A stretch of 64,000 nt of DNA from Nereocystis luetkeana (Eukaryota > Sar > Phaeophyceae > Laminariales > Laminariaceae). A program made the position numbers and the translations under genes. The stretch is taken from positions 5,031,049 through 5,095,048 of the forward strand of contig JARUPZ010000002.1 in assembly GCA_031213475.1 (NCBI GenBank), given 5' to 3'. Of this stretch, positions 11,101-62,984 are shown piece after piece. Every line of letters begins with the position of its first letter. Within the stretch, counting starts at the first letter, position 1. Under the pieces are notes generated by a model. It searched no databases and was not told where the DNA came from. It saw nothing but the letters and a program-made list of their open reading frames with translations.

Positions 11101-12978
11101 ATCATGGTGAGCCCCGACAGCGGCATGACCACGAGCACTGGCGTGTCAACTTACCAGGTATCAAAGACCAGATAGCTGGTATGGCAACACAACCACCCTT
11201 ACACCGAGGGTGGGTACATGATGACACGTGAAAATGCCCCCCTCTAACAACATCCCCGCCCTCCCCCTTCCTTTCTCTCCACCGCATCCCTCCGCGTTTT
11301 GATCAATCACGCTTGCTGTTGTTTTCATCGGTTCGTATCACGTTATCGGTCGATCGGACGGACACAAGGGCGTTTTCGCGGATGACGACTGCTGGTACGT
11401 GGTCATGGAGCTCGCGAGGGGCGGCGAGCTGTTCGACCGCCTGACCACGGAAGGCGTCGTCTTGCCGGCAGACGAGGTCCGCTCCCTGCTCAGAGAGACG
11501 GCGGGCGCCGTGGCGTACATGCACGACCGAGGGATCGTCCACGGTGACATCAAGCCCGAGAATGTTTTGCTCACGATTCCCGCGGCGGCAGCAAGTACAA
11601 GCGCAACCGGGATTGCGGCAACAACCGCGTCCTTAGCGGCTCGCGCTTCTGACGAGTCTGTCGGCGCGGGTAGTAGTAGTAGTAGCAGCAGCAAGGGGGC
11701 AGCTAACCGCTTCGGGCAGGCGGGAGTGCAGCAGGGGTTGGGGAAGCTGGAGCTGGAGCGGGAACAGACAGGGGCGGGGTCGGGGCTCGGGAAGGTTTTG
11801 TTGGCGGATTTCGGGTCGAGCTTTCGGCTGCGGGAGGGTTCCGCGGACGGGGGAAAGCTGGTGAAGGAATACACGGTGGCGTACAGCGCGCCGGAAGTGG
11901 TGGAGAACAGCCCTGATGTCGATCACAAGGCCGATGTTTGGTCTCTGGGGGTGATCGCGTATGTCATGGTGAGGGGAGGTCGGCGGAGGGAGGCACGGGC
12001 GGGCGCGGGTGCGATGCTGTGCGTGGGCGGCGGCTCTGTTAGCGATACGTTCCGTCGCCGAGTAGTAGTAGGAGTAGTAGTATTTATAGTGAGTCAATCA
12101 CTAGCAGTGTATTGCGTAAGCTCACGGTTTCGCGCATCGGACAGTTAGATCATCTACATATTATTTACACTGGATGATCCAGTCCTTTCAGGATGGATAG
12201 GATGACTTCCTGATTTGCCAAATCTGCGGTAGCTCATATTGCCCGGTGAGAGCCGTGACATTCTGCATGATCTATCTGGGACGTGATTCCTGGGTTGGTC
12301 AGGTTCTACTATTACGGGGGACAATAGTAAATAGGACCAAATATTGTTAGTAAAAATGGTTAAATAGATACCGGTAGGTTTTAATGTAACCATGAGTCCT
12401 ATTAACTATGGTCCCCCGTAATACTGTGGCAGATCCTGCGCGTCATCTCAAAACAGCAGGTTAGGAGCTAGATGATCTACCTGTAGATGGTATTTCTGTC
12501 CAGCGCTATTTATGAAACAAGCGATTTACACACCACTAAAACCAGGGCTGTTCATGGGTCGGGTCAAATCAAATCTCGTGAGTCGAGTTGGGTCAGGGTG
12601 ACCTGGCGCGACCCGTGAGATTTTCGGAAAACCTCCTGACCCGACCCGGCCGGTGATATTTTGAAGACCTCCTAAACCCGACCCGCGGGTCGGGTCATGT
12701 CATGACCCGCGAAGAGCCCTGCCAGGTATTTCTAACCCTCTTTTTGTGTAAACGAACGATGTCGACAGGTTAAGGGACACCATCCTTTCGACCCTTCAAG
12801 CGAAGCGGATGACGATGAGATAGCGGAGAGTATTATCAACTCCGAGCCCGACTGGGACGGGCTGGACTCCCAGGCGGCACAGCTCATCCGGCGGATGCTC
12901 GCGAGGGACCCCATAGATAGGCCTTCGGCCGAGGAGGTGTTCCGTAGCTCATGGCTGTGCGCACCAAGCGCGAAGTAG
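5152..12978 (+). CDS. Mitochondrion-targeted, membrane-anchored Ser/Thr protein kinase (four exons)
   Basis: I assemble four exons: 5152-5466, 10496-10690, 11369-11968 and 12769-12978. All introns are GT-AG and phase 0, and the product is 439 residues ending in TAG. Residues 1-45 are rich in Arg, Ala, Gly and Ser with no acidic residue before 49, as in a mitochondrial presequence. Residues 64-83 form one hydrophobic helix. The kinase domain follows: Gly loop LGRGQFGTV (115-123), Lys138 in VAVK, helix-C Glu155, hinge VVMELARGGELF, catalytic loop HGDIKPEN (228-235), DFG at 317-319, and an APE motif in YSAPE (342-346). Exon 4 supplies GHHPFD and the closing Arg helix (DRPSAEEVF). It resembles the CAMK/CDPK group, but no EF-hands follow. 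Two oddities: the HRD Arg is Gly, and about 70 low-complexity residues (Ala, Ser, Gly) lie between the catalytic loop and DFG. The exon 1 to exon 2 join spans a 5 kb intron; it is inferred from the clean join IED|FYTF. The location is inferred from the N-terminus alone. Confidence 0.85.
7261..7322. mobile_element. piggyBac-like hairpin element P, diverged copy
   Basis: The words TGGGGACAAAGTAC and GCTTTGTCCCAAAAAC face each other around a short AT-rich centre (AATTTTGACTG), as in the better copy at 24630-24726. The outer arms have decayed. Confidence 0.55.
8843..8947. mobile_element. MITE family A, copy 2 (in kinase intron 1)
   Basis: Ends GACGGGGGACCATAGTTAA and AACTATGGTTCCCCGTAATA. The core is ATATTTAACCATTTTTACTA. 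The inverted repeats allow a long hairpin. Confidence 0.8.
10765..10867. repeat. Two-copy 53-bp tandem repeat in kinase intron 2
   Basis: Two adjacent units share TAACTTTGGT, TGTGCGATATGCGCGGTGTA and ATAGCG-GAGACCGC with only a few mismatches. It is a recent tandem duplication, and no function is apparent. Confidence 0.75.
12310..12423. mobile_element. MITE family A, copy 3 (in kinase intron 3)
   Basis: Bordered by TATTACGGGGGACAATAG and CTATGGTCCCCCGTAATA. The inner words AAATATTGTTAGTAAAAATG match copies 4-6 almost exactly. It lies wholly inside intron 3. Confidence 0.85.
12545..12724. mobile_element. CAGGG-ended (hAT-like) element T, unexpanded copy
   Basis: Starts CAGGGCTGTTCATGGGTCGG and ends CCCGCGAAGAGCCCTG, which are imperfect inverted repeats. 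Several GACCCGACCCG/CGGGTCGGGTC words lie inside. The same ends border the long pentamer array at 27385-27955. CAGGG termini are typical of hAT elements, but I see no clear 8-bp target duplication. Confidence 0.6.
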
Positions 12979-27384: not shown

Positions 27385-27955
27385 TCCCCAGTAAATGCAG
27401 GGCTCTTCACGGGCCATGAACCCACCCGCTGGTCGGGTCCTCGGGAGGTTTTCAAATCTCACGGGTTGGGTCGGATCGGGTCGGGTCGGATCAGATAGGT
27501 GTCGACAGCTCACACAACTTGCAACCGCGCCCGACCCGACCCGACCCGATCCGACCCGACCCGACCCGACCCGACCCGACCCGACCCGACCCGACCCGAC
27601 CCGACCCGACCCGACCCGACCCGACCCGACCCGACCCGACCCGACCCGACCCGACCCGACCCGACCCGACCCGACCCGACCCGACCCGACCCGACCCGAC
27701 CCGACCCGACCCGACCCGACCCGACCCGACCCGACCCGACCCGACCCGACCCGACCCGACCCGACCCGACCCGACCCGACCCGACCCGACCCGACCCGAC
27801 CCGACCCGACCCGACCCGACCCGACCCGACCCGACCCGACCCGACCCGACCCGACCCGACCCGACCCGACCCGACCCGACCCGACCCGACCCGACCCGAC
27901 CTGACCCGACCCGACCCGACCCGACCCGACCCGACCCGACCCGTGAAGATCCCTG
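27385..27955. mobile_element. CAGGG-ended (hAT-like) element T with expanded satellite core
   Basis: The left end CAGGGCTCTTCACGGG (27399) and right end CCCGTGAAGATCCCTG (27941-27955) are inverted repeats. The left flank inside the element (CGGGAGGTTTTCAAATCTCA) matches the inside of the short copy at 12545-12724. Between them lies a long CCCGA array. The element is therefore the same family, with an internal pentamer amplified. Confidence 0.65.
27529..27943. repeat. CCCGA pentanucleotide array, about 83 units
   Basis: Almost perfect repeats of CCCGA, with CCGAT near the left end and CTGAC near 27901 as the only changes I notice. All six frames are open. The resulting five-residue repeats (for example RPDPT on plus, GSGRV on minus) are artefacts. 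Confidence 0.97.
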
Positions 27956-32204: not shown

Positions 32205-32455
32205 TGCTCCTTCTCCTTCTCCTTCTCCTTCTCCTTCTCCTTCTCCTTCTCCTTCTCCTTCTCCTTCTCCTTCTCCTTCTCCTTCTCCTTCTCCTTCTCC
32301 TTCTCCTTCTCCTTCTCCTTCTCCTCCTCCTTCTCCTTCTCCTCCTCCTTCTCCTTCTCCTTTTCCTTCTCCTTCTCCTTCTCCTTCTCCTTCTCCTTCT
32401 CCTTCTCCTTCTCCTTCTCCTTTTCCTTCTCCTTCTCCTTCTCCCTTTCCTCCTC
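32205..32455. repeat. CCTTCT hexamer polypyrimidine tract
   Basis: About 250 bp of pure pyrimidine, mainly CCTTCT with some CCTCCT and TTTTCC variants. It lies about 70 bp upstream of the bZIP start codon on that gene's side. Frames of poly-Arg, Gly-Glu, Ser-Pro and poly-Leu here are artefacts. Confidence 0.95.
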
Positions 32456-32854
32456 CTCTTCCGCTCCTCCTCCTGGCCCTTGGCTCCTGCTGACACCAGC
32501 CGATACCTACCGACACACACACATTGTTGCAGAAGAAAAAAGCGTTTCTTGCAAGTTGATAGGATTTTTCGGTTGATCGACCGCTGTTTTGTGGCTGATG
32601 ATGACAGTCAGAGGAAAGGCCGGTGTCTTTTGTCGGTACTATATACAGCCCTCGACAGATTAAGTATGCCGCATTCAAGAAAAGCGGCGTATTTCGTTTG
32701 CGTAGATCGAGGAGGCGACGATTTACTGGACGGGGGGAAGGGGGAGGGGAAGGGATGGAAGGGCAGGAGGGGGGAGAGGATGGGGCGCCTCAAGAAACGA
32801 ACAGCGGCCATGAACACAAAAAAGCGAGGACTAACTCCGAGAAGAGCACGGCAT

Positions 32855-36699: not shown

Positions 36700-37215
36700 A
36701 CATTCTGTTAAGATCATGGACAGCGGGACACTTTGTATCCCTGGGCAGGTCTGCCTATTAAGCCGGTACTCATTGGTACTCACGTTGATGTTCGCTTAGA
36801 GACAGAAGAGCCAATTCATTCCTCTCGTGCACGATGTTCGTTTATAAAGGATAGACCACTGAGTCAGCGCTGACTGAGTAGCTCAGTGGTCTATCCTTTA
36901 TAAACGAACACACGACGGAGACTGAGACCACGCTCGTGCCTCTCTGGAAAACCCCTGGTTTTCCACCTAAGATACGCCTTCCAAGTACTACAAATACGAT
37001 CCCAGTGCCAGAACCCAGGCAATTACCGGGCTTTCAACTTCATACAAAGCAGTATCATAACACTAGCCCACTCTGATGAGCCGTATATATACGCAGAATT
37101 GTGGGAAATTCAAGGAAACCCCGATTCCACAACTAGAACATGAGTCCAAGATGCGGCTCCTCAAAACCCACTCCCACACCTCTGAACGGCAAGGCAACGA
37201 AGCCGGCAAAGTACG
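36700..37215 (+). repeat. Dispersed repeat family D, copy 2
   Basis: Matches 62520-62945 over its length, apart from the hairpin at 36836-36909. Shared blocks include AACCCCTGGTTTTCCA, CACTCTGATGAGCCGTATAT-like sequence, GCGGCTCCTCAAAACCCACT and CCCACACCTCTGAACGGCAA. The short open frame it contains (from 37140) recurs in part at 62.86 kb, but has no recognisable motif. Confidence 0.75.
36836..36909. mobile_element. Hairpin element H, near-perfect copy
   Basis: Arms GTTCGTTTATAAAGGATAGA and TCTATCCTTTATAAACGAAC are perfect and extend through CCACTGA/TCAGTGG. The loop is GTCAGCGCTGACTGAGTAGC. Copies of family D at 62.6 and 63.1 kb lack it at this point, so it looks like an insertion. Confidence 0.8.
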
Positions 37216-37663
37216 TAAAAATAATGAAAGGAAGGCGTAGCCTTAAGGGGCAGGAAGAAATCGTCAACGAAAAACCATCGCCATGTCACCCGCGATGGGG
37301 GGGGGCGAGGAAGATGCAGGGGAAGTGAAAAGTGAATATAAAAAAGACGAGAAGAAAAATATCACGGAATATGTCAAGAAACACCGAAAACCCAGCCTAC
37401 TACTCGGGAAACGTGTCCTGTGCCACAAATGAGTGGCCCGATTACCCAAACCAGCCCCGGGACTGAGCGGGGGGGGTAGGCAGAACAGAATACGCAAAAA
37501 GCATCTCCAACCAAGCCCAAAAACAAAACACTCAAACAAACAACCCAGGAACACACCTGCCAGAAAAAAAACTAGACCCGAAAAGTCGGAAGTAGAAAGA
37601 TCACCGCCCAAAATCCAGGAAAACGTCAAGAAAACAAAAACGAGCGCAGCCGAGAAGCGAAAA

Positions 37664-38830
37664 TCAGCTATCCACGGCGGCTCCTCGAGATTCGTCCACG
37701 TTACGCTGGACCCCCCGTGCAAATGCGCTAGCCAAGTGAATTCGTAGACACCAAGAGCCACGTACAGCTCTCGTCGACGTCGTGTAGCGCGCCGGAGAAA
37801 GAGGAAGCTTGATCGGTCCCGGGTCGTTCAAAAATCGAACCGAATATACTCCATCCGTGGGCGTAGTCGCGCTGATTTTCCCGAGCCACCACAGCCCGTG
37901 GTCGCCCTTGTACCCAAAATGGGCCCCGTTGGGAAGCACGGTGTTGCAGTATCGGCGGAGCCAGTCGGCGTGCGAGACGCAGCCATAGCCGGGTGCCAGA
38001 AACCGCTCGCCGTTATTCCGAGAGAGCTCCCGTTGTGCCGCGCCGATTCGCATTCGGCGGTACAGGCGGTTGGTTTGACGATGCTGGTTCGGGGTGCCGG
38101 CCCAGTAGCGCAAAATTGCGTGGCGAGAAAGCGGAAGGTCCATTTCCCGTTCCCAGGATGGACGGGAGAGTCCAGTCCAGAGCGTCTCGTACATCACTGC
38201 GATGACGCCACCTCGACCTCGAATCGATAGGTGTCCGGTAATATTTTCCACTTCGAGTCGGTGAAGAGGGGTCGAGACGTCGTCCTGGGTGACGTGGTAC
38301 GGGGGAGATTTCTTGGAGAAGTTGTTGAGCACGTACTGCGTCAACCCCGCTGGCAAATACTTCGGCATGTCGCCACGGTCGTGGGGGTTGGCACAGGGCT
38401 TGCAGCGTTGAACTGAAACGCGCCGACGAGCATCCGCGCCGGGCATATCGGAGGGAAGATCCTAATACAGGAGCTTTGCCCCTAGAGGAGACCCGTCCGG
38501 GGTGTCCGCTGCGGAGCAGGGGCCAACTGCGAGAACTTTGTAGGGGCCTGTCCAGCTGAGTGAGAGTTTGGCCTTGAGGACCTCGGTGTCCGTGTCGGAT
38601 TTTGCCCCCTGGCGGATGGTGGCCGCCGTATTGTACACCCACGCCCAGCCGCCAACGTCAAATCTGGGGACCGGACGCAGAGCGTCGGCAAGGGCGGAGT
38701 TGCGGCGGTTCACGCGGGCAACAGTGAGGGCGTGGTGTTCGCGAACGATATCGTACGCGCGCTGCCGGCGGTCCGTCGCCAAGTCGCAATAGGCGAGGTG
38801 GTCGCGGGCCAAGATTTGGTGGCCGACGAC
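37664..38830 (-). pseudogene. Integrase C-terminal region (core missing)
   Basis: The first part (38812-38462) has RDHLAYCDLATDRRQRAYD, PRFDVGGWAWVYNTAATIR and LSWTGPYKVLAVGP, which are the post-core helix and the SH3-like C-terminal fold of gypsy integrases. One TAG (38459-38461) interrupts the same frame between LLY and DLPSDMPGADARRR. The second part then runs to 37664 and includes YWAGTPNQHRQTNRLYRR and KGDHGLWWLGKISATTPTDG, which may bind chromatin. The zinc-binding HHCC head and the DDE core, normally some 200-250 residues, do not lie upstream. The sequence passes straight from a proline-rich spacer into the C-terminal part near 38830. Confidence 0.75.
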
Positions 38831-39286
38831 TCCAGCACGCTGGAAATTTGTGAGGGGGAGGCGTAGCAGCCGAGGGCGAACTGAACTTCGGCAGCTTCGC
38901 CGAGGGCGTCCAAGTCATTCGTGGGGACGGGCGGTGCGTCAGGTGGCAGCGGAAGCCGTAAAAGAGGGGTTCCCACGGGCTCGGCGCGGTCGCGTTCGGA
39001 CGGGATGGGTACCGTCGGGACCAGCGAAGCGGCAGGAGCCGGGGCCAAAACGACTGGTGCGGTCGGTCGCGGCCGTGGGGCTCGCGGCGGGGCGATAGTA
39101 CGCCGGGCTGATGGTCTAGGGGGCCCGCCGGGCCCGAAGCCATAATCAACAGCAGGCGGCGCAGAGCCAGCGGCGGCGGCTGTTCGTCGGCGCGTCCGAG
39201 TGGAGATGCGGCCAGAAGAAGGCAAAACGTTCGGAGGCGCCGGGGTGCCAGGCGGCGATGGGGTAGACGCGGCCGGAGCAGTACTC

Positions 39287-39540
39287 ACGGCGGAATCTTA
39301 TCCCTGTAAAGTGCTCGTCGGGGGAAGAGCGTGCTGGGCGACAATCGTCGCTACAGCGGGGGCTTCTGCATTGCCCAGGCCTGAAGGGGCAGACGCGGCG
39401 GGGGCAGTGCTCACGGCGGAATCTTCTCCCCTGTAATTTGCTCGTCGGGGGAGGAGCGCGCTGGGCGACAAACGTCGCCGCAGCGGGAGCTTCTGCAGAG
39501 CCCTGGTCGACCCCGGAGGGTACGACAAAAACCGAAGCGA
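39287..39540 (-). repeat. Tandem duplication of about 127 bp in the pol spacer
   Basis: Two units share GTGCTCACGGCGGAATCTT-like starts, GCTCGTCGGGG(G/A)A(A/G)GAGCG, TGCTGGGCGACAA and CGCAGCGGGAGCTTCTGCA-like blocks. The reading frame is broken at the junction by a TAA. Confidence 0.75.
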
Positions 39541-40310
39541 AAGCGGTGTTGGCGGCGGGTGAAAAACCCTCAAGCCAGGACGGCGATCGACGGTGGCGAT
39601 GGAAGCAGATACACGAGCGACGAATCTCCCCGAAGGAGCAGAGAGGTCGTCAATTCTCATACGTGGCCTGTGTGTGCGAAAATCGCGAAAACCCGAAGAG
39701 GTGAAAGGCAGCCCACCCAAGACGGTACTTTCGGTGCAGGGCACCAGCCCACCCAAACCAACACCGAGGGTCAGCGAAGAGCGAGTGCGAAGCCCGCAGG
39801 CTCGGTTGAGGAAGACACCACCGTCCTCGACGGGAGTGAGGCGGCTAGACCCACTGCGGTCGTGTTCTGTGGCGGGCTCCGGCAAGTGGGAGAGAAAATC
39901 AGCATTTCCGTTGGCGCTGCCATTGCGGTACTCGAGGGTGTAGTCGAACGCAGTGAGGAGCTCGAACCACCGCTGGACTCGCGCGTTGTGGTCCCCTAAA
40001 TTGCCGATGCTCTCCAGTACTTTGTAGTCCGAAAATATGCGAAACTTTGTCCCCCATAGGTAGCCTCGGAGTCGCTTGATAGCCCAGACAATGCGGCAAG
40101 CTTCCAGGTCCAACGGGGTCCAGTGCCTTTCGGAATCGAGAGTAGCACGGCTGATATAAGCAATGGGCCGTACCGAGCCGTCCAGTTGTTCTTGTTAAAG
40201 CGCGGCACCAGAACCGTCGATGCAGGCGTCACATTACACGCGAAAGGGGCGGGAGCCGTCGGCTACAGCATCCCAGTCCGGGAGGCCAAAACTGGCGGAG
40301 CAGCGAGGTG
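39298..40310 (-). pseudogene. RNase H domain of gypsy pol plus spacer
   Basis: The minus-strand frame gives ASFGLPDWDAVADGSRPF, CDACIDGSGAAL, VRPIAYISRATLDSERHWTP, LDLEACRIVWAIKRLRGYLW, FRIFSDYKVLESIG and NGNADFLSHLPE. Together these are the RNase H fold of Ty3/gypsy pol, with its catalytic Asp in CDACIDG, Glu in LDLEA and Asp in FSD. Two in-frame TAA codons interrupt it, one just before CDACIDG (where Tyr is usual) and one after GSGAAL. After the domain comes a long spacer rich in Pro, Ala, Arg and Ser. Upstream, no reverse transcriptase is present: the palm motifs (LDL..G, YxDD) are absent and the sequence joins directly to the end of protease. Confidence 0.8.
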
Positions 40311-40890
40311 GTAGAGAGCGGTAGGAGCGGCGATTAAAACACATCCAGCTGTCACGTCCAAGGAGTACTGCATGCTGCATCACTTAGGGGGGAACCACGC
40401 AGGCCCAAACTGCGGGGGAGCACGTAGGCTCATTTTCTCGAAAAAATTGGTCGCTCAGGCGCACGCTCGTCGATGCCTGCAGAGGGGCTGATTCGCCAAA
40501 TCCCCCAAAAACGAGGGATGCATTTCTGCTCGCACGCGATGGATCACCAATGAGAGCATGCGATCCAAAACATCTCGTCGGATGAAAGCCTGTGGGGAGC
40601 CAGTGTCAAGGAGCGCCACGCAACCAAAAGGTGCAAGAACGCCAGCTCCGCTGTGAATCGCGATTTTGGTTGTAAAAGAGGCGTCATCGAGGGTAATGGT
40701 ACCCTCGACGAGGCAGGGGCCGTGTTCTGGCAGCGCGAGGGAGGGGTCGACACCAGGTGCGACAGCCAAAACCTCGGTGCTGTGATCAGCCGGCGCGTCA
40801 GAAAAATAGGTAGAAAACTCCAAGGGGGGACCTAAGCAAGCGCGGGCCACGGCCAAAGGGCGAGGCGGCGCTGGGGAAATCTCATGAATT
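40310..40890 (-). pseudogene. Retropepsin-type aspartic protease of gypsy pol
   Basis: FGCVALLDTGSPQAFI carries the DTG triad at about 40600. Before it lie VEGTITLDDASFTTKIAIHS and LAPFGCV, the usual strands leading to the active site. In a second frame, VMQHAVLLGRDSWMCFNRRS (about 40310-40385) has the LLGRD block found near the C-terminal end of these proteases; a TAA precedes it. The protease frame is +1 relative to the NADAR frame, and the two frames overlap around 40894. The overlapping readings LHSDHD and TTTDRIHEIS suggest a one-base indel, or a programmed shift, in an originally fused polyprotein. Confidence 0.75.
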
Positions 40891-40893
40891 CTG

Positions 40894-42366
40894 TCAGTCG
40901 TGGTCGGAGTGCAAAATTGATGAAGAGGAGGCGGGGGGTGCCAACCCGGCCTCACTTGAGCGGAGGGTGTCGCGAACGGCGGAAAGAGCTTTCCCGAGCA
41001 AAGTTTTGCCACGCCACCGAGAGGGGTCTTGACCTTCGGGGTCGTCTGCCCGGAGACCAATGCCCCACACGGGGTCAAAAGGGCTGGCTTTAGCCAAATT
41101 TTTGCTGCCGGTGCTCAATAGGTGCTGCTTTATGACCGGGTTCTGCGTGAATTTGGCGAAGGAACCAGCAAGGACGGCGTCTTCCCAAACGCGGTCCCAG
41201 GTAGCGCAGTCGAAGTTATGCTCGCCTCGACCGAGGCGTTTCTGCTCGCGAGTGTCTGGCGAAGCCATAATCCGCTCCGCTGTGTCGTGGACCAGAAAAA
41301 GTCGAGCCTTTTCAGCCATCATATACTGCTCCGCGCAGGAATATGTCACTCCGTCAATGACAAAAACCGAGGGAGACCACTGCGAAAAATAGGAGGGGGG
41401 CTGCCAGAAAAGTACTACCCGCTCCGTTGAATACTCGAGATAAGGGTCAAAGACCGAAGATGTCGAGTCGTCGGTGGCCGCCGTTGCGGTGTGTGTGGGG
41501 GGGAGTGCGCTTCTCTGAGAACACTGAGCCCCTGGTGCACGAGGTGAGTCCGGTTCCACGTATACTAGCTCAGTGTCACCATTGCCCGTAGGCAAAAAAC
41601 CGCCAGAAGGTTCTCTTACTGCGCCCGATGATCTCTGTCCTGGATCAAAGGGGACAGGGGGCTCTGAGCCCATTCTGCTTGACGAGAGCTGCGACTCTTC
41701 CGAATTTAACGGGTATGCTGTCCGGTTGATCTGACTGGAGGCTGTGGAGTCACCACTGGCTCGACGGGCAGTACCAGTTTTTTCCTGTTCCACTGGAGCC
41801 GAAAGAGCGCGGCGCACGTGGAGTGGCGTGCGCGAAGATAAAAGAGGGCCTGCAGACCCTGTAGACGACTTCAAGAACGGTGCTCCGGAGGGGGGCAACA
41901 AAGAGTCCACCGGAGAGGGCTTCCGTCCTGTAGACCTGGTGGGGAAGGGGGACGAAGTAGTTAATCTTGTCGACTCTTCGTTAATAGGAAACAGGATTGA
42001 ATGGCCACCGTTATTGCGAGGAAATGCCGAGTCGAGCTTCAACCGAGATCTCGGGGTTTCGGTGTTTGCCTTCCCGCACCTCAAACCGACCCTCGCAGAA
42101 AAGAACGACGCGACGGCGCGACACGCGTAAAGCCGCGCGGTGCGTGGTTCGGGAGAGGGGCGTTCATCTCGCCTGCTCTCGTGCCCAGGGTGAGGGGAGA
42201 GGCATTCGAGGCGCGGGCTCCCGACGTCGGCGAAGACGCTCGGAGACTCCCAGGTAGAACCGGTGGAGCTGAGTCGCTGCGTCGGTCCGAAGTACGGAGC
42301 AACGCGCGGGGGGGGAAGCGGCGCAGGGCGACGCTGAGTGCTGAGCGAGCCTGGGACGCGTGTATC
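40894..42366 (-). CDS. Pol segment with NADAR (YbiA-like) domain
   Basis: An uninterrupted frame follows a TAA at 42367-42369 and ends in TGA at 40894. It has no ATG before about 41.67 kb, so it was probably read as part of the polyprotein. The first two thirds are Ser/Pro/Arg-rich and disordered. The NADAR domain (about 41421-40963) follows: FSQWSPSVFVIDGVTYSC, AEQYMMAEKARLF, a DTREQKRLGR block, KFTQNPVIKQHLLSTG, SPFDPVWGIGLRADDP and WRGKTLLGKALSAVRDTL. The Glu of AEQYMMAEKA and the DxxWGxG box are the conserved family residues. NADAR proteins act on ADP-ribose- or riboflavin-pathway N-glycosides, and some remove ADP-ribose from modified DNA or protein. The domain shows no stop or frameshift, although the reverse transcriptase next to it is gone. 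Whether it has a role in the element's life cycle or is a passenger cannot be told from the sequence. Confidence 0.8.
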   Translation of the reverse strand, partial: DTRVPGSLSTQRRPAPLPPPRVAPYFGPTQRLSSTGSTWESPSVFADVGSPRLECLSPHPGHESRRDERPSPEPRTARLYACRAVASFFSARVGLRCGKANTETPRSRLKLDSAFPRNNGGHSILFPINEESTRLTTSSPFPTRSTGRKPSPVDSLLPPSGAPFLKSSTGSAGPLLSSRTPLHVRRALSAPVEQEKTGTARRASGDSTASSQINRTAYPLNSEESQLSSSRMGSEPPVPFDPGQRSSGAVREPSGGFLPTGNGDTELVYVEPDSPRAPGAQCSQRSALPPTHTATAATDDSTSSVFDPYLEYSTERVVLFWQPPSYFSQWSPSVFVIDGVTYSCAEQYMMAEKARLFLVHDTAERIMASPDTREQKRLGRGEHNFDCATWDRVWEDAVLAGSFAKFTQNPVIKQHLLSTGSKNLAKASPFDPVWGIGLRADDPEGQDPSRWRGKTLLGKALSAVRDTLRSSEAGLAPPASSSSILHSDHD

Positions 42367-42379
42367 TTATGAAATCAAT

Positions 42380-45300
42380 GTCTTTTCTCCCGGCAATGCT
42401 GGCGGCGGGCGGGCAGGGGCCGAACCGCCGTCGGCCTGTCAGTTACCGGCGCGGAAGGTGCCCGGATGGCGTCCGTTGGGGTTACCGTCCTAGTTATGCG
42501 AGGCACCGTAGCGAACCCCCGTCGCGGGAGCCGCGGTGGAAGAGGCGGAGGTGGTCGAACCACCACCGTGGTAGCCGGAGTTTAGGCTGTTGGTGCCCTC
42601 GTTCCGCGTGTGTGTTGTAGCCGCCACCTTGTCTGTGGCCCTGGCCGTGATGCTGGCTACGCGAATGGCCTGAACGACGCCTGTTTTTCTTGTGGTTGTT
42701 CTTGTTCGGCCGAGAGTTATTTTCGCAGCGGTGTCGGTTCATGCGTCCTTGCCAACGACGGAACGCCGCTCCGTCGTCGCCGAGAGTTCCGAGGTCAGGG
42801 TTGAGAATACCGCTGAGGTTTTGAAAGGGGTGCCTACACTGTCTGAGGGAGTGTGAGTCTTCGCGGCAGTTCAAACAGCGGCCTCGATTTTCGCTGAGGG
42901 CGGCCGCGCGGGCGGACGGTGAAAGTAGAGGGGGGGTCCTCGGTCTGGATAGACATGCAAACAGCGTGAACTTCAGTATAGTGGTGTTCTTCTAGGGGCC
43001 AGCAGTTGGAAGCGGTGTCAAGCCACGGGTTGAGGCAGTCAGGGATGGATTTGTGGGCGTTCATCACAAGCGGAATATTGCGCGACCCCGTTTGCCAAAC
43101 AGGTGACTGGGGAAGTGTCCGGCCCTGGTCGCGACCAATACCGGCGAGCTGGGGCCCCGACGGGGCGGATGACCGCACACTCGTCGAAGAAGCAGGCAAA
43201 GACAAATATTTTTCGCCGTTGATGGCAGGTGTCTTATTACTCGCTAGAGTCTCAAAAGCCAACCACATGGCGTCCAAAGTACCAAACGGCCTCGACACCG
43301 TAGCCGAAACTCCCGGGTACAGCGTGGGCATCAAGCTGGGGAGCTGCTCGTTCACTGCCATCCGAACCACCTCCAAAACAACCTTCACCCCCGGAGTCAA
43401 ACACGCTCAGTCCCCGTCGCTGCCGACACCACCCCCCGAAAAGCACGGCTAAAATCGCAAAAGGGGGTCCCGTTAGGTACGCCAAAATGATGCAACTTGG
43501 TGTAGCTGGCCCCCGTGTCGGTGCGGTCGAAGTGGTTGCTCAACAGCCTCAGGAGGAGCGTGAACGCTTCCGGTCCCGTCGATCCAGCTGCGAGGGCGCG
43601 CGACACCTCTTGGAGCCAGTGGTGATCTCCGGAACGGGGCTTTCGCCGCTGCCGTCCGAGGAGGATCTCGAAGAGTTTGCCTGCGACGCGTCTCCCCGCG
43701 GGCGGTAGTTCCAATGTCGTCCGTCGCTCGAGCTGTCCTTCCCCTGGCCCCGGTTCCGCCGCCGTCCAGTCCCGTTTCGCCGAAACGTGCTTCTGCCGTG
43801 ATCTGAACCCTGCCCGCGGCGGGCCTTGCCGTCTTAGCCTGCCGAATCTCCCCCCGTGCTTGGGCGCCGGCGGTCCCGGGCGTCATCGCGGCGGTAGGGG
43901 TGGTCACGGGCCCCAGAGCCGTCGGGGACTCCCCGGTGTTGGTGCCCCGGGGGTCGGTGAGTCCGGTTGTCCGAAAGGGGGTTGGAGGGGGCGTGGGCCT
44001 GATCCGAACCCTGTCCGATGTCCGGGAGCAGTTATCCCTGGGCACCGAGGTCGGCCTGACGCTTGCAGTGGTGCCCATACTCCGTCGGGGTCGGCCAAAA
44101 AACGGTGGCGGAGCACAAGTCGTGCGCCTGCCGCAGGCCTACCACGAGAGCCATGGTGTGCTCCGGGCGTTGCTGAGCCTTCCAACTGTCACCCACCATG
44201 AAGAGCCAAGCGTCGTGGACGGAGAGGTCGTCCTCGGGCATGTCCAGTCGGAGCTCGCGAGCGGCAGAGACGACCCTTGAAGCCGCCTCAAGGAGAAAGC
44301 ACGAATTTGGGCCTGCAGCCATGCAGGCGACGCTCCCCTGGAAGAAATCCAGATCCCCGGTACGCTTGATCCGGGCGTCGACCGCGATGGCTCTAGGAGG
44401 GAGCGTGGCGGAGGAGCTAAAACCGGGGCTGGAGTGGCGGTTGTCGCGGCCTCGACGAGGGGAAGGCGCTCCCCTGAGTTTCTTGTCTCGGCAACACGAC
44501 GGGGCTTCGTGCTGCTGTCCGCCCGCGCCGCCCGCAGAGCTTCCCTGGCGCGGGATATGGAGTCCTGGGCGCAGGAGGCGGAGCGCGCAGCGTCCTTCGA
44601 GGCCACGGTGGCCGCCTTCGAAGCATTTTTTGCGGCCTCCGAAGCAGTGGGAGCGTCGGCGGCGGTGCGAGCGGCCGCTGATGCCTCATTCTCGGCCACG
44701 GTGAGCGCCTGCGCCCGGCGGCGGGTGGTTTCCGCCGAGGTCGCTCCGAGGGTCTCGGCGGCAGTCAAGGCCCGTTCGGCCGTCGCGACATCGGGGTGAT
44801 CGTCGGCTGCAAGAGGCCGTGATCCCCCCGCCGAGGTCCGGCACGTCTGACCAGCGCCGGATGAGGGCCGCCTGGGCCCCGACCGAGAGGGAGGTCCAGG
44901 CCTCTGGTAGTTGGGGGGGGCGGGGCTTGATCCCCGTCCAGCGCTGTCTCCCTAGCGGCGCCTTGCATCGTCGTCCGCTCCTCGTCCTCGGAACTGCGGG
45001 GCTCGTAGTCCACAGCGTCGTCCAAATCCGTCTGGCCCGGACGCTGGGGTGTCCGCTCTCCCGACGAGGGAGAGGAGCCGTAAGTCCTCAGGCCGCTGGC
45101 AGACCTGGCGGGGCTGGGGGACTCCTCCTTCGCCTTTGGTGTCCGTTGCATGCTGAGTCGGGGACGGGCGAAAAACATCGGGGCAGGGGAGGGCACTGGG
45201 GCAGGGGGGGACACCGGGGCCGGGGGGGGCGGCATTTGGCGGAACTCAGGGTCGTGTAACGAAGGAGCTGCGGTGGCAGTATCCGCAACTCGTTCTTTAG

Positions 45301-45919: not shown

Positions 45920-46445
45920 GTCCTCCCGTCTTGTGGGCGGGGCGCAGGAATTTTTTCACGAGCGGCCGTCTCGCTCCCTCTAGCAGCAGTCTCAAAACTT
46001 GCAGCAGTACTGTAGGTTCCAGCAGAATCGGCGTGGGTGGCTACGGCAGAGGAAAAGGCAGGCGCACTACTGAAACGCAGTGTACCGTCTTGTGGGCGAG
46101 CCATGGGAAAAAATCACGAGGGGCCATATCGCTCCCTCCAACAGCAGCATCAAAACTCGCAGCCGTACTAGAATTTTCAGCAGAATCGGCGCGGGTGGGA
46201 ACAGCAGCGGGCAAAGCAGGCGCAATACCGAAATCCAGTGTGCCGTCTTGTGGGCGAGGCGTGGAAAAAAATCACGAGCGGCCATATCGCTCCCCCTAAC
46301 AGCAGCATCAACACTCGCAGCCGTACTAGAATTTTCAGCAGGAACGGCGCGGGTGGGCATAGCAGCGGGCAAGGCAGGCGCAATACCGAAATCCAGTGAG
46401 CCTGCCGTCTTGTGGGCGAGGCATGGAAAACAAAACACGAAAATC
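45920..46445 (-). repeat. Tandem repeats of about 159 bp upstream of gag
   Basis: The block CCGTCTTGTGGGCG starts at 45926, 46085, 46243 and 46405, spaced 159, 158 and 162 bp apart. Units also share TCGCTCCCTC(C/T)A, CAGCAGAATCGGCG-like and AACAGCAGCGGGCAAAGCAG-like blocks. Read on the minus strand, units 1 and 3 encode about 53 similar residues (for example SSAVATHADSAG and PAAMPTRAVPAEN), and the start of the Gag frame (SAAVATRDDSAGK) is a further relative. The 158-bp spacing breaks the frame. Confidence 0.75.
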
Positions 46446-62519: not shown

Positions 62520-62945
62520 CTCATTGTATCCTTCGTTAGGTTTGCCTATTGAACAGACACTTGTTGGGACTCGCGTGTGTTGTTTGCTTGGAGAATAGAA
62601 GAGCAGCTCTATTATTTTCGTGCACGATGAGTAACTGAGAGCAAGGCTCGTGCCTCGCTGGGAAAACCCCTGGTTTTCCATGTAAGGTACGCCTTCCAAG
62701 CAGTACAAATGCGATCCCAATAATACCTGAACCCAGATAGTTTCCGGCGTTTCAGCCTCATTCAAAGCAGTGCCATAACACTAGCCTACTCTGATGAGCC
62801 GTATATATATGCAGCATTATGGAGAATTCGTGGAAGTCTCCGATTCCACGAGCTAGAACATGAGTCGGGAGGTGCGGCTCCTCAAAACCCACTCCCACAC
62901 CTCTGAACGGCAAGGTAACGAAGCCGGCAAGGTACGCCAATCAAA
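62520..62945 (+). repeat. Dispersed repeat family D, copy 3 (without hairpin)
   Basis: Matches 36700-37215, with CGTGCACGATGAGTAACTGA where the other copy has the hairpin. CTCAAAACCCACTCCCACAC is identical in both. Confidence 0.8.
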
Positions 62946-62984
62946 AGAAAGAAACGACGTCGTGTGTTTAAAGGCCCGGACACA

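Follow-up and report, generated by a model that had tools for sequence, protein, structure and literature searches.

A NADAR domain in the Pol polyprotein of a Ty3/gypsy retrotransposon lineage of the brown alga Nereocystis luetkeana

The window analysed here is a stretch of 64,000 nucleotides from the brown alga Nereocystis luetkeana (GenBank assembly GCA_031213475.1, contig JARUPZ010000002.1, positions 5,031,049 to 5,095,048), which carries on its minus strand, from approximately 42,900 to 37,667, a broken retrotransposon of the Ty3/gypsy type (Metaviridae). Within this element an open frame of 490 amino acids (aa), also on the minus strand (40894-42366), encodes a full NADAR domain that matches the Pfam profile PF08719 over positions 2-163 of 163 (E 3.2e-44, 151.5 bits against a cut-off of 35.1). 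An earlier note on the window had recognised the domain from five motifs, AEQYMMAEKA, KFTQNP, LLSTG, FDPVWGIG and WRGKTLLG, all of which lie in this one frame, and the profile search bears out the identification. The span that it gave, 40963..41421, does fall on the domain, which is properly 40960-41409; the high end was some 12 bases too far, and the strand was not stated. It had also placed NADAR in the pol frame between the zinc knuckle of Gag and a protease with the motif DTGS, and this is indeed the arrangement found, the order along the element being Gag CCHC motif, NADAR, LDTGS and RNase H. Comparison with further copies and with database proteins shows that NADAR is a regular part of Pol in one lineage of Ty3/gypsy elements, found in this host and in at least one other genome.

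A search of the 465-Mb host genome for NADAR domains gave 778 candidates, and each of the best 150, which were scored, exceeded the Pfam cut-off, with a stop inside the domain in approximately 20 of them. Eighty of these 150, picked across the score range, were combined with the window copy to give a comparison set of 81 domains, which were assigned by motif strings in a script to five families: A, which includes the window copy (31 members), B (42), C (5), D (2) and E (1). Confinement of NADAR to the window copy, which the earlier note had named as a refuting outcome, is not what the genome-wide search gave: the domain recurs in many copies and families. In one tested copy of each family NADAR is followed by the protease region, reverse transcriptase (RT) and RNase H, and D-T-G-S is present in examined copies of families A, B, C and E. 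The frame that contains NADAR remains open through the 3 kb fetched downstream, past RT, at 16 of 26 family-B loci and at none of 14 family-A loci. Family-B pieces display the order expected of Ty3/gypsy elements (Gag with CCHC, then protease, RT, RNase H and integrase); at L117/L044 the gag frame with its CCHC motif shares the phase of the Pol frame, from which a single stop separates it, and at L116/L028 the two frames are out of phase. The order for the lineage as a whole is Gag with CCHC, a loosely constrained stretch of approximately 340 aa, NADAR, protease region, RT, RNase H, integrase and a tail. The best 150 of 4777 RT candidates formed a near-uniform set that is presumed to be another element type. 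Five NADAR matches (C10, C987, C1041, C1184 and C1795) share an identical score and a 231-aa open frame, and are perhaps a duplicated or uncollapsed segment.

The same arrangement is found in database proteins. With the span from NADAR to the protease as query, 110 proteins were matched (7999 candidates scored), of which 83 have NADAR followed by the protease region, 20 match only in the part after NADAR and seven only in NADAR itself. A D[TS]G[AS] motif is present in 74 of the 83, and NADAR and RVT_1 are both listed for five of the 110. One protein, which matches only after NADAR, is labelled Undpi1, which we take to be the kelp Undaria pinnatifida. When the 44 relatives whose domain is near-full are compared in NADAR with their nearest counterparts among the 81 copies, identity is 90% for one and does not exceed 71% for the other 43. 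The protein P0131 comes from another genome, since its best whole-span match in this one is only 48% identical (59 of 2044 candidates scored). Two ENA proteins that match the query in NADAR only, P0226 and P0228, combine NADAR with a macrodomain, and P0228 has PF10021 in addition.

NADAR descends together with RT. Three five-taxon trees, one built from NADAR and one from each of two RT pieces, share a single topology, (A,C), D, (B,E). When nonsynonymous (dN) and synonymous (dS) divergence were estimated by the method of Nei and Gojobori, families B and E gave a dS of 0.85 for NADAR and 0.82 for RT-RNase H, and this near-equality fits a shared history; silent sites are close to saturated in most of the remaining family pairs. 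The dN/dS comparison across copies that the earlier note had suggested reveals purifying selection on the domain, with a ratio of 0.42 between families B and E, the corresponding figure for RT-RNase H being 0.13. Within families, the pooled NADAR ratio is 0.53 for A, 0.42 for B and 0.51 for C, and singleton changes, taken from 21 family-A copies, yield 0.74, which is closer to neutrality, as expected once copies are inserted. In a tree of 120 NADARs, which included 34 retrotransposon rows (24 of the 44 near-full relatives and P0001 among them), forcing all 34 into one clade raised the log-likelihood by 28 and was not rejected by the approximately unbiased (AU) test (p-AU 0.77). A single origin is thus compatible with the data, though not proven by them. 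Several independent captures were considered and set aside, since the one-clade tree has a better likelihood than the free search, and a viral origin was likewise rejected, as 22 NADARs from viral contigs (of 23 loci) fall among other NADARs.

The pieces of the window copy are listed in Table 1.

Table 1. Pieces of the broken Ty3/gypsy element, in order from Gag to the end of Pol
Feature	Position in window	Strand	Evidence or remark
Gag end with CCHC zinc knuckle (C-x2-C-x4-H-x4-C)	42656..42907	-	In frame 42494-42991; motif found
N-terminal Pol region ahead of NADAR, ~340 aa	41410..42438	-	70% identity to family-A copy L011
NADAR domain, YbiA type	40960..41409	-	PF08719; residues 320-469 of 490-aa frame
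Linker and aspartic protease, LDTGS at 40596-40610	40297..40946	-	84-87% identity to L011 pieces
Junction lacking the RT that sister copies hold	40284..40297	-	Protease-region match stops at 40297, RNase H match starts at 40284
RNase H and connection	39556..40284	-	PF17917, E 1.6e-19; 86% identity to L013
C-terminal Pol tail, beyond integrase core	37667..38824	-	61% identity, 398 aa, to family-B L118:1501-2721

The Gag end aligns with a family-B gag piece at 43.7% identity over 87 aa (tblastn, E 8.8e-14). The Pol region ahead of NADAR is under loose constraint (dN/dS 0.67), and no Pfam match to it was obtained in the L011 or L024 piece. The protease has a weak match to Peptidase_A2B (E 0.058, under the cut-off). 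No match to the family-A or family-B RT pieces was present in the window, nor, with a family-B probe as the only one used (L118:1-1500, Integrase_H2C2 and rve), was there a match to the integrase zinc finger and core. Pfam gave no convincing match to the C-terminal tail, and no chromodomain in the window piece 37664-38461 or in the L118 tail. No pair of long terminal repeats (LTRs) was found around the window copy. A dispersed repeat has copies at 36921-37238 and 62634-62963 that match at approximately 83%, and another portion of it stands in inverted orientation at 2359-2517; the first of these copies lies just beyond the 3′ end of the element and may be an LTR or another repeat. A 127-base unit in about two copies (39260-39497) occupies the expected site of the integrase core inside the element, and a 158-base unit is present in three tandem copies (45956-46440) upstream of its Gag.

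In the numbering of 8BAU, the solved Phytophthora NADAR, the window domain retains E43 and K50 and has Lys in place of E125 (E125K) and Trp in place of R93 (R93W), and to judge from these residues it is probably dead. Given the two substitutions, together with the missing RT and the integrase core that the family-B probe failed to match, the element is almost certainly a dead relic of the NADAR-gypsy lineage. The earlier note had described the neighbouring enzymes as ruined, which holds for RT and the integrase core; pieces of protease and RNase H do survive, at approximately 84-87% identity to sister copies, the figure for NADAR being approximately 90%. It had also treated the freedom of the domain from stops as special. 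NADAR is, however, equally free of stops in 20 of the 31 sampled family-A copies, the window copy included, so this is an ordinary state that gives no sign of selection on the window copy, and with E125K and R93W also taken into account special preservation of its NADAR is rejected. Against the 30 other family-A copies, the window NADAR has dN/dS ratios of 0.27 to 0.76; comparisons with one copy each gave 0.33 and 0.34 for pieces of the protease region and 0.37 for RNase H.

The fold was assessed on a family-B domain, with the window copy as a row of the alignment, and the active-site pocket across the lineage. The family-B domain matches 8BAU in phmmer (E 9.5e-17), and its AlphaFold2 model has a mean predicted local distance difference test (pLDDT) score of 97.6. 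In a Foldseek search with this model only two solved structures reached an E-value of 0.001, both of them NADARs: 8BAU, the best (E 2.8e-10, template modelling (TM) score 0.86), and E. coli YbiA, 2B3W (TM 0.80). Among the 81 copies, which were drawn from the best-scoring 150 of the 778 candidates, E43, K50, D130 and W133 are each present in 80 and E125 in 76; in the 44 near-full relatives the counts are 43 for E43, 42 for K50, 41 for E125, 42 for D130 and 43 for W133. The contacts made with ADP-ribose by the Phytophthora enzyme were taken from PMC11543638 and transferred to the copies by way of the 8BAU alignment. Among representatives of the five families, invariant columns number 9 of 13 at the contacts and 38 of 137 elsewhere (Fisher p 0.004); the inclusion of six database proteins changes these to 7 of 13 and 24 of 137 (p 0.006). 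As judged from these alignments, the catalytic residues known from solved NADARs are retained in the lineage, as are most of the residues that contact ADP-ribose. The Glu at position 125 assigns the domains to the YbiA subfamily, and the alternative BC4488 or DarTG1 antitoxin type was rejected, since Asp occupies that position in none of the 81 copies and the exon-by-exon search of the genome yielded no DarT match.

Retroelements expose both RNA and DNA. The likeliest role for the domain, proposed tentatively and with somewhat less than even confidence, is that of a particle-packaged hydrolase which removes ADP-ribose from guanines of the element's own RNA or complementary DNA (cDNA). The earlier note had already raised the removal of ADP-ribose from the element's DNA, which is plausible. 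ADP-ribose on guanine in DNA is a substrate of NADARs (PMC11543638). In RNA, no other hydrolase family was found to act on guanosine ADP-ribose, which every NADAR tested removed, and NADARs did not act on phosphate ends (PMC11833690). On this proposal NADAR would be made in the proportion of Gag-Pol and taken into the particle beside RT, the adjoining protease probably freeing it from the polyprotein. Within the particle it would cleave ADP-ribose from guanines of the packaged RNA or of newly made single-stranded cDNA, and reverse transcription would then not be blocked.

Several observations count against the packaged-hydrolase proposal and the account of the lineage that underlies it. The conservation percentages are flattering because the copies were sampled from the top of a score-ranked list. 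Among the ligand contacts, conservation does not extend to D86; K75 is replaced by Gln in the representative of family C, R79 by Gly in that of family E, and R93 by Cys in 31 of the 44 database relatives. The domains are not strongly basic (isoelectric points (pI) of 5.7 to 9.0), which leaves nucleic-acid binding by the domain alone unproven. NADAR is less constrained than RT, the DTGS motif was not found in one family-D copy examined, and free trees split the retrotransposon NADARs, into two groups in the first and with three label changes in the second. Nor is there an obvious writer of the modification in the host genome. Searched exon by exon, it gave no match to a DarT-type enzyme (one of 14 control genomes matched, and introns could hide exons), and it gave one weak exon-level match above the cut-off to PARP, covering 50 of 199 profile positions, in a search that matched none of the 14 control genomes and hence had no positive control. 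With the writer missing in this sense, the substrates could instead be small molecules or proteins.

The first of these options, in which the enzyme would serve small-molecule hygiene by hydrolysing soluble derivatives of ADP-ribose, signals that resemble cyclic ADP-ribose or reactive N-glycosides, inside the particle or close to it, survives best among the alternatives and is judged somewhat unlikely. It accords with the Glu at position 125, the mark of a subfamily whose E. coli member YbiA acts on riboflavin intermediates (PMC11543638), with the soluble-signal targets proposed for phage NADARs (PMC9503650) and with the failure to find a DarT writer. Against this, the NADARs of eukaryotic RNA viruses, which are carried in polyproteins with the polymerase, have been argued to hit chiefly macromolecular conjugates (PMC9503650), the activity on RNA was common to all NADARs tested in PMC11833690, and fusion to Pol suggests that the domain is needed during reverse transcription. 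A non-catalytic module, which would bind ADP-ribose, RNA or a host factor or aid the folding or multimerisation of Gag-Pol without hydrolysis, is distinctly improbable: the looser sequence demands on NADAR than on RT-RNase H, seen in the ratios for families B and E, and the variation of several ligand contacts would suit it, but the catalytic residues E43, K50 and E125 persist in 76 to 80 of 81 copies, and invariance is commoner among the contact columns than elsewhere in the domain. Removal of ADP-ribose from proteins (Gag, RT, integrase or host chromatin), as a counter to a PARP-type response, an option raised in part by the earlier note, appears less probable still. The PARP match in the host genome would be in keeping with it, as would the observation that animal RNA viruses seldom combine a NADAR with a macrodomain, from which similar ADP-ribosyl targets, host-made macromolecular conjugates, have been suggested (PMC9503650); yet that match spans only 50 of 199 profile positions, and what has been assayed for NADARs is activity on ADP-ribose linked to bases, no protein assay being described in the available parts of the literature covered. 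Finally, a chance insertion, or a host gene captured in one copy, has nothing beyond the window itself in its favour and is effectively ruled out by the five families and the database relatives that hold NADAR at the same place, by the matched dS and by the matching trees.

Erasers of guanine ADP-ribosylation, in the form of NADARs, occur in many eukaryotes, and to our knowledge few writers or roles are known for this mark outside toxins. It is conceivable, if on balance unlikely, that the hosts of these elements mark the RNA or cDNA of retroelements by guanine ADP-ribosylation, as an unrecognised eukaryotic genome defence, and that the gypsy lineage described here captured a counter-enzyme once, long ago, and has packaged it ever since. 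If so, this would be the first retroelement-borne eraser of nucleic-acid ADP-ribosylation, and LTR elements would gain a second kind of built-in nucleotide-hygiene enzyme besides dUTPase. The fixation of an eraser in Pol of an abundant retroelement lineage would point to reverse transcription as a possible setting in which the mark matters, and the question can be addressed with a 150-residue domain and standard oligonucleotide assays.

The architecture itself is already known. The earlier note knew of no well-described retroelement of this form, but NADAR within Gypsy elements, such as Gypsy-12_Ec32, was reported for Ectocarpus in September 2025 (PMC12477816), where a role in RNA processing is guessed at. 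This was the single paper bearing on the architecture in the literature covered, which gave no paper on DNA ADP-ribosylation in brown algae. What is added here is the conservation of the pocket, the co-descent with pol and the compatibility with one origin; the available part of that paper contains neither an analysis of the pocket nor estimates of selection, nor does it test the origin of NADAR-Gypsy elements or propose a guanine-ADP-ribose hypothesis for them. The Ectocarpus elements are of the same class and also from a brown alga, the likeness to Gypsy-12_Ec32 being one of description only. The hosts differ, a kinase exon of the window being 55% identical to an Ectocarpus siliculosus protein, and the Ectocarpus elements have a C-terminal chromodomain (PMC12477816), whereas the tail here has no convincing Pfam match. 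A NADAR-like domain is also present in a retrotransposon in ORF1 of Tx1 elements of the Pacific oyster (PMC12477816); these are long interspersed elements (LINEs) and their domain is called divergent, whereas the element here is of the LTR type. Phytophthora 8BAU and E. coli 2B3W have a like fold, and the E43/K50/E125 pocket of 8BAU is shared, but both are stand-alone NADARs (32% and 28% identical) and the domain here is part of a Pol polyprotein. The DarT1-NADAR (DarTG1) toxin-antitoxin systems have in common the chemistry of NADAR on guanine-ADP-ribose (PMC11543638, PMC11125620), but their antitoxins have Asp at the position occupied here by Glu. The nearest mechanical parallel is the betaretroviral dUTPase, which serves nucleotide hygiene, occupies the N-terminal end of the protease frame and is found in virions (PMC8961515); the enzyme and its chemistry are unrelated, so that the likeness is one of position and logic only.

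Elsewhere in the window, one or more exons of a protein kinase lie on the plus strand at 11303-12145 (PF00069, E 7.2e-29), the sole Pfam match at an E-value of 0.001 among ten other large open reading frames. By E-value, the best named matches of this stretch are from Scytosiphon and Ectocarpus, at 55% identity, followed by other brown algae. Two simple repeats are also present, approximately 83 copies of the 5-base unit CCCGA at 27530-27943 (99% matches) and approximately 42 copies of the 6-base unit CTCCTT at 32207-32457 (94% matches).
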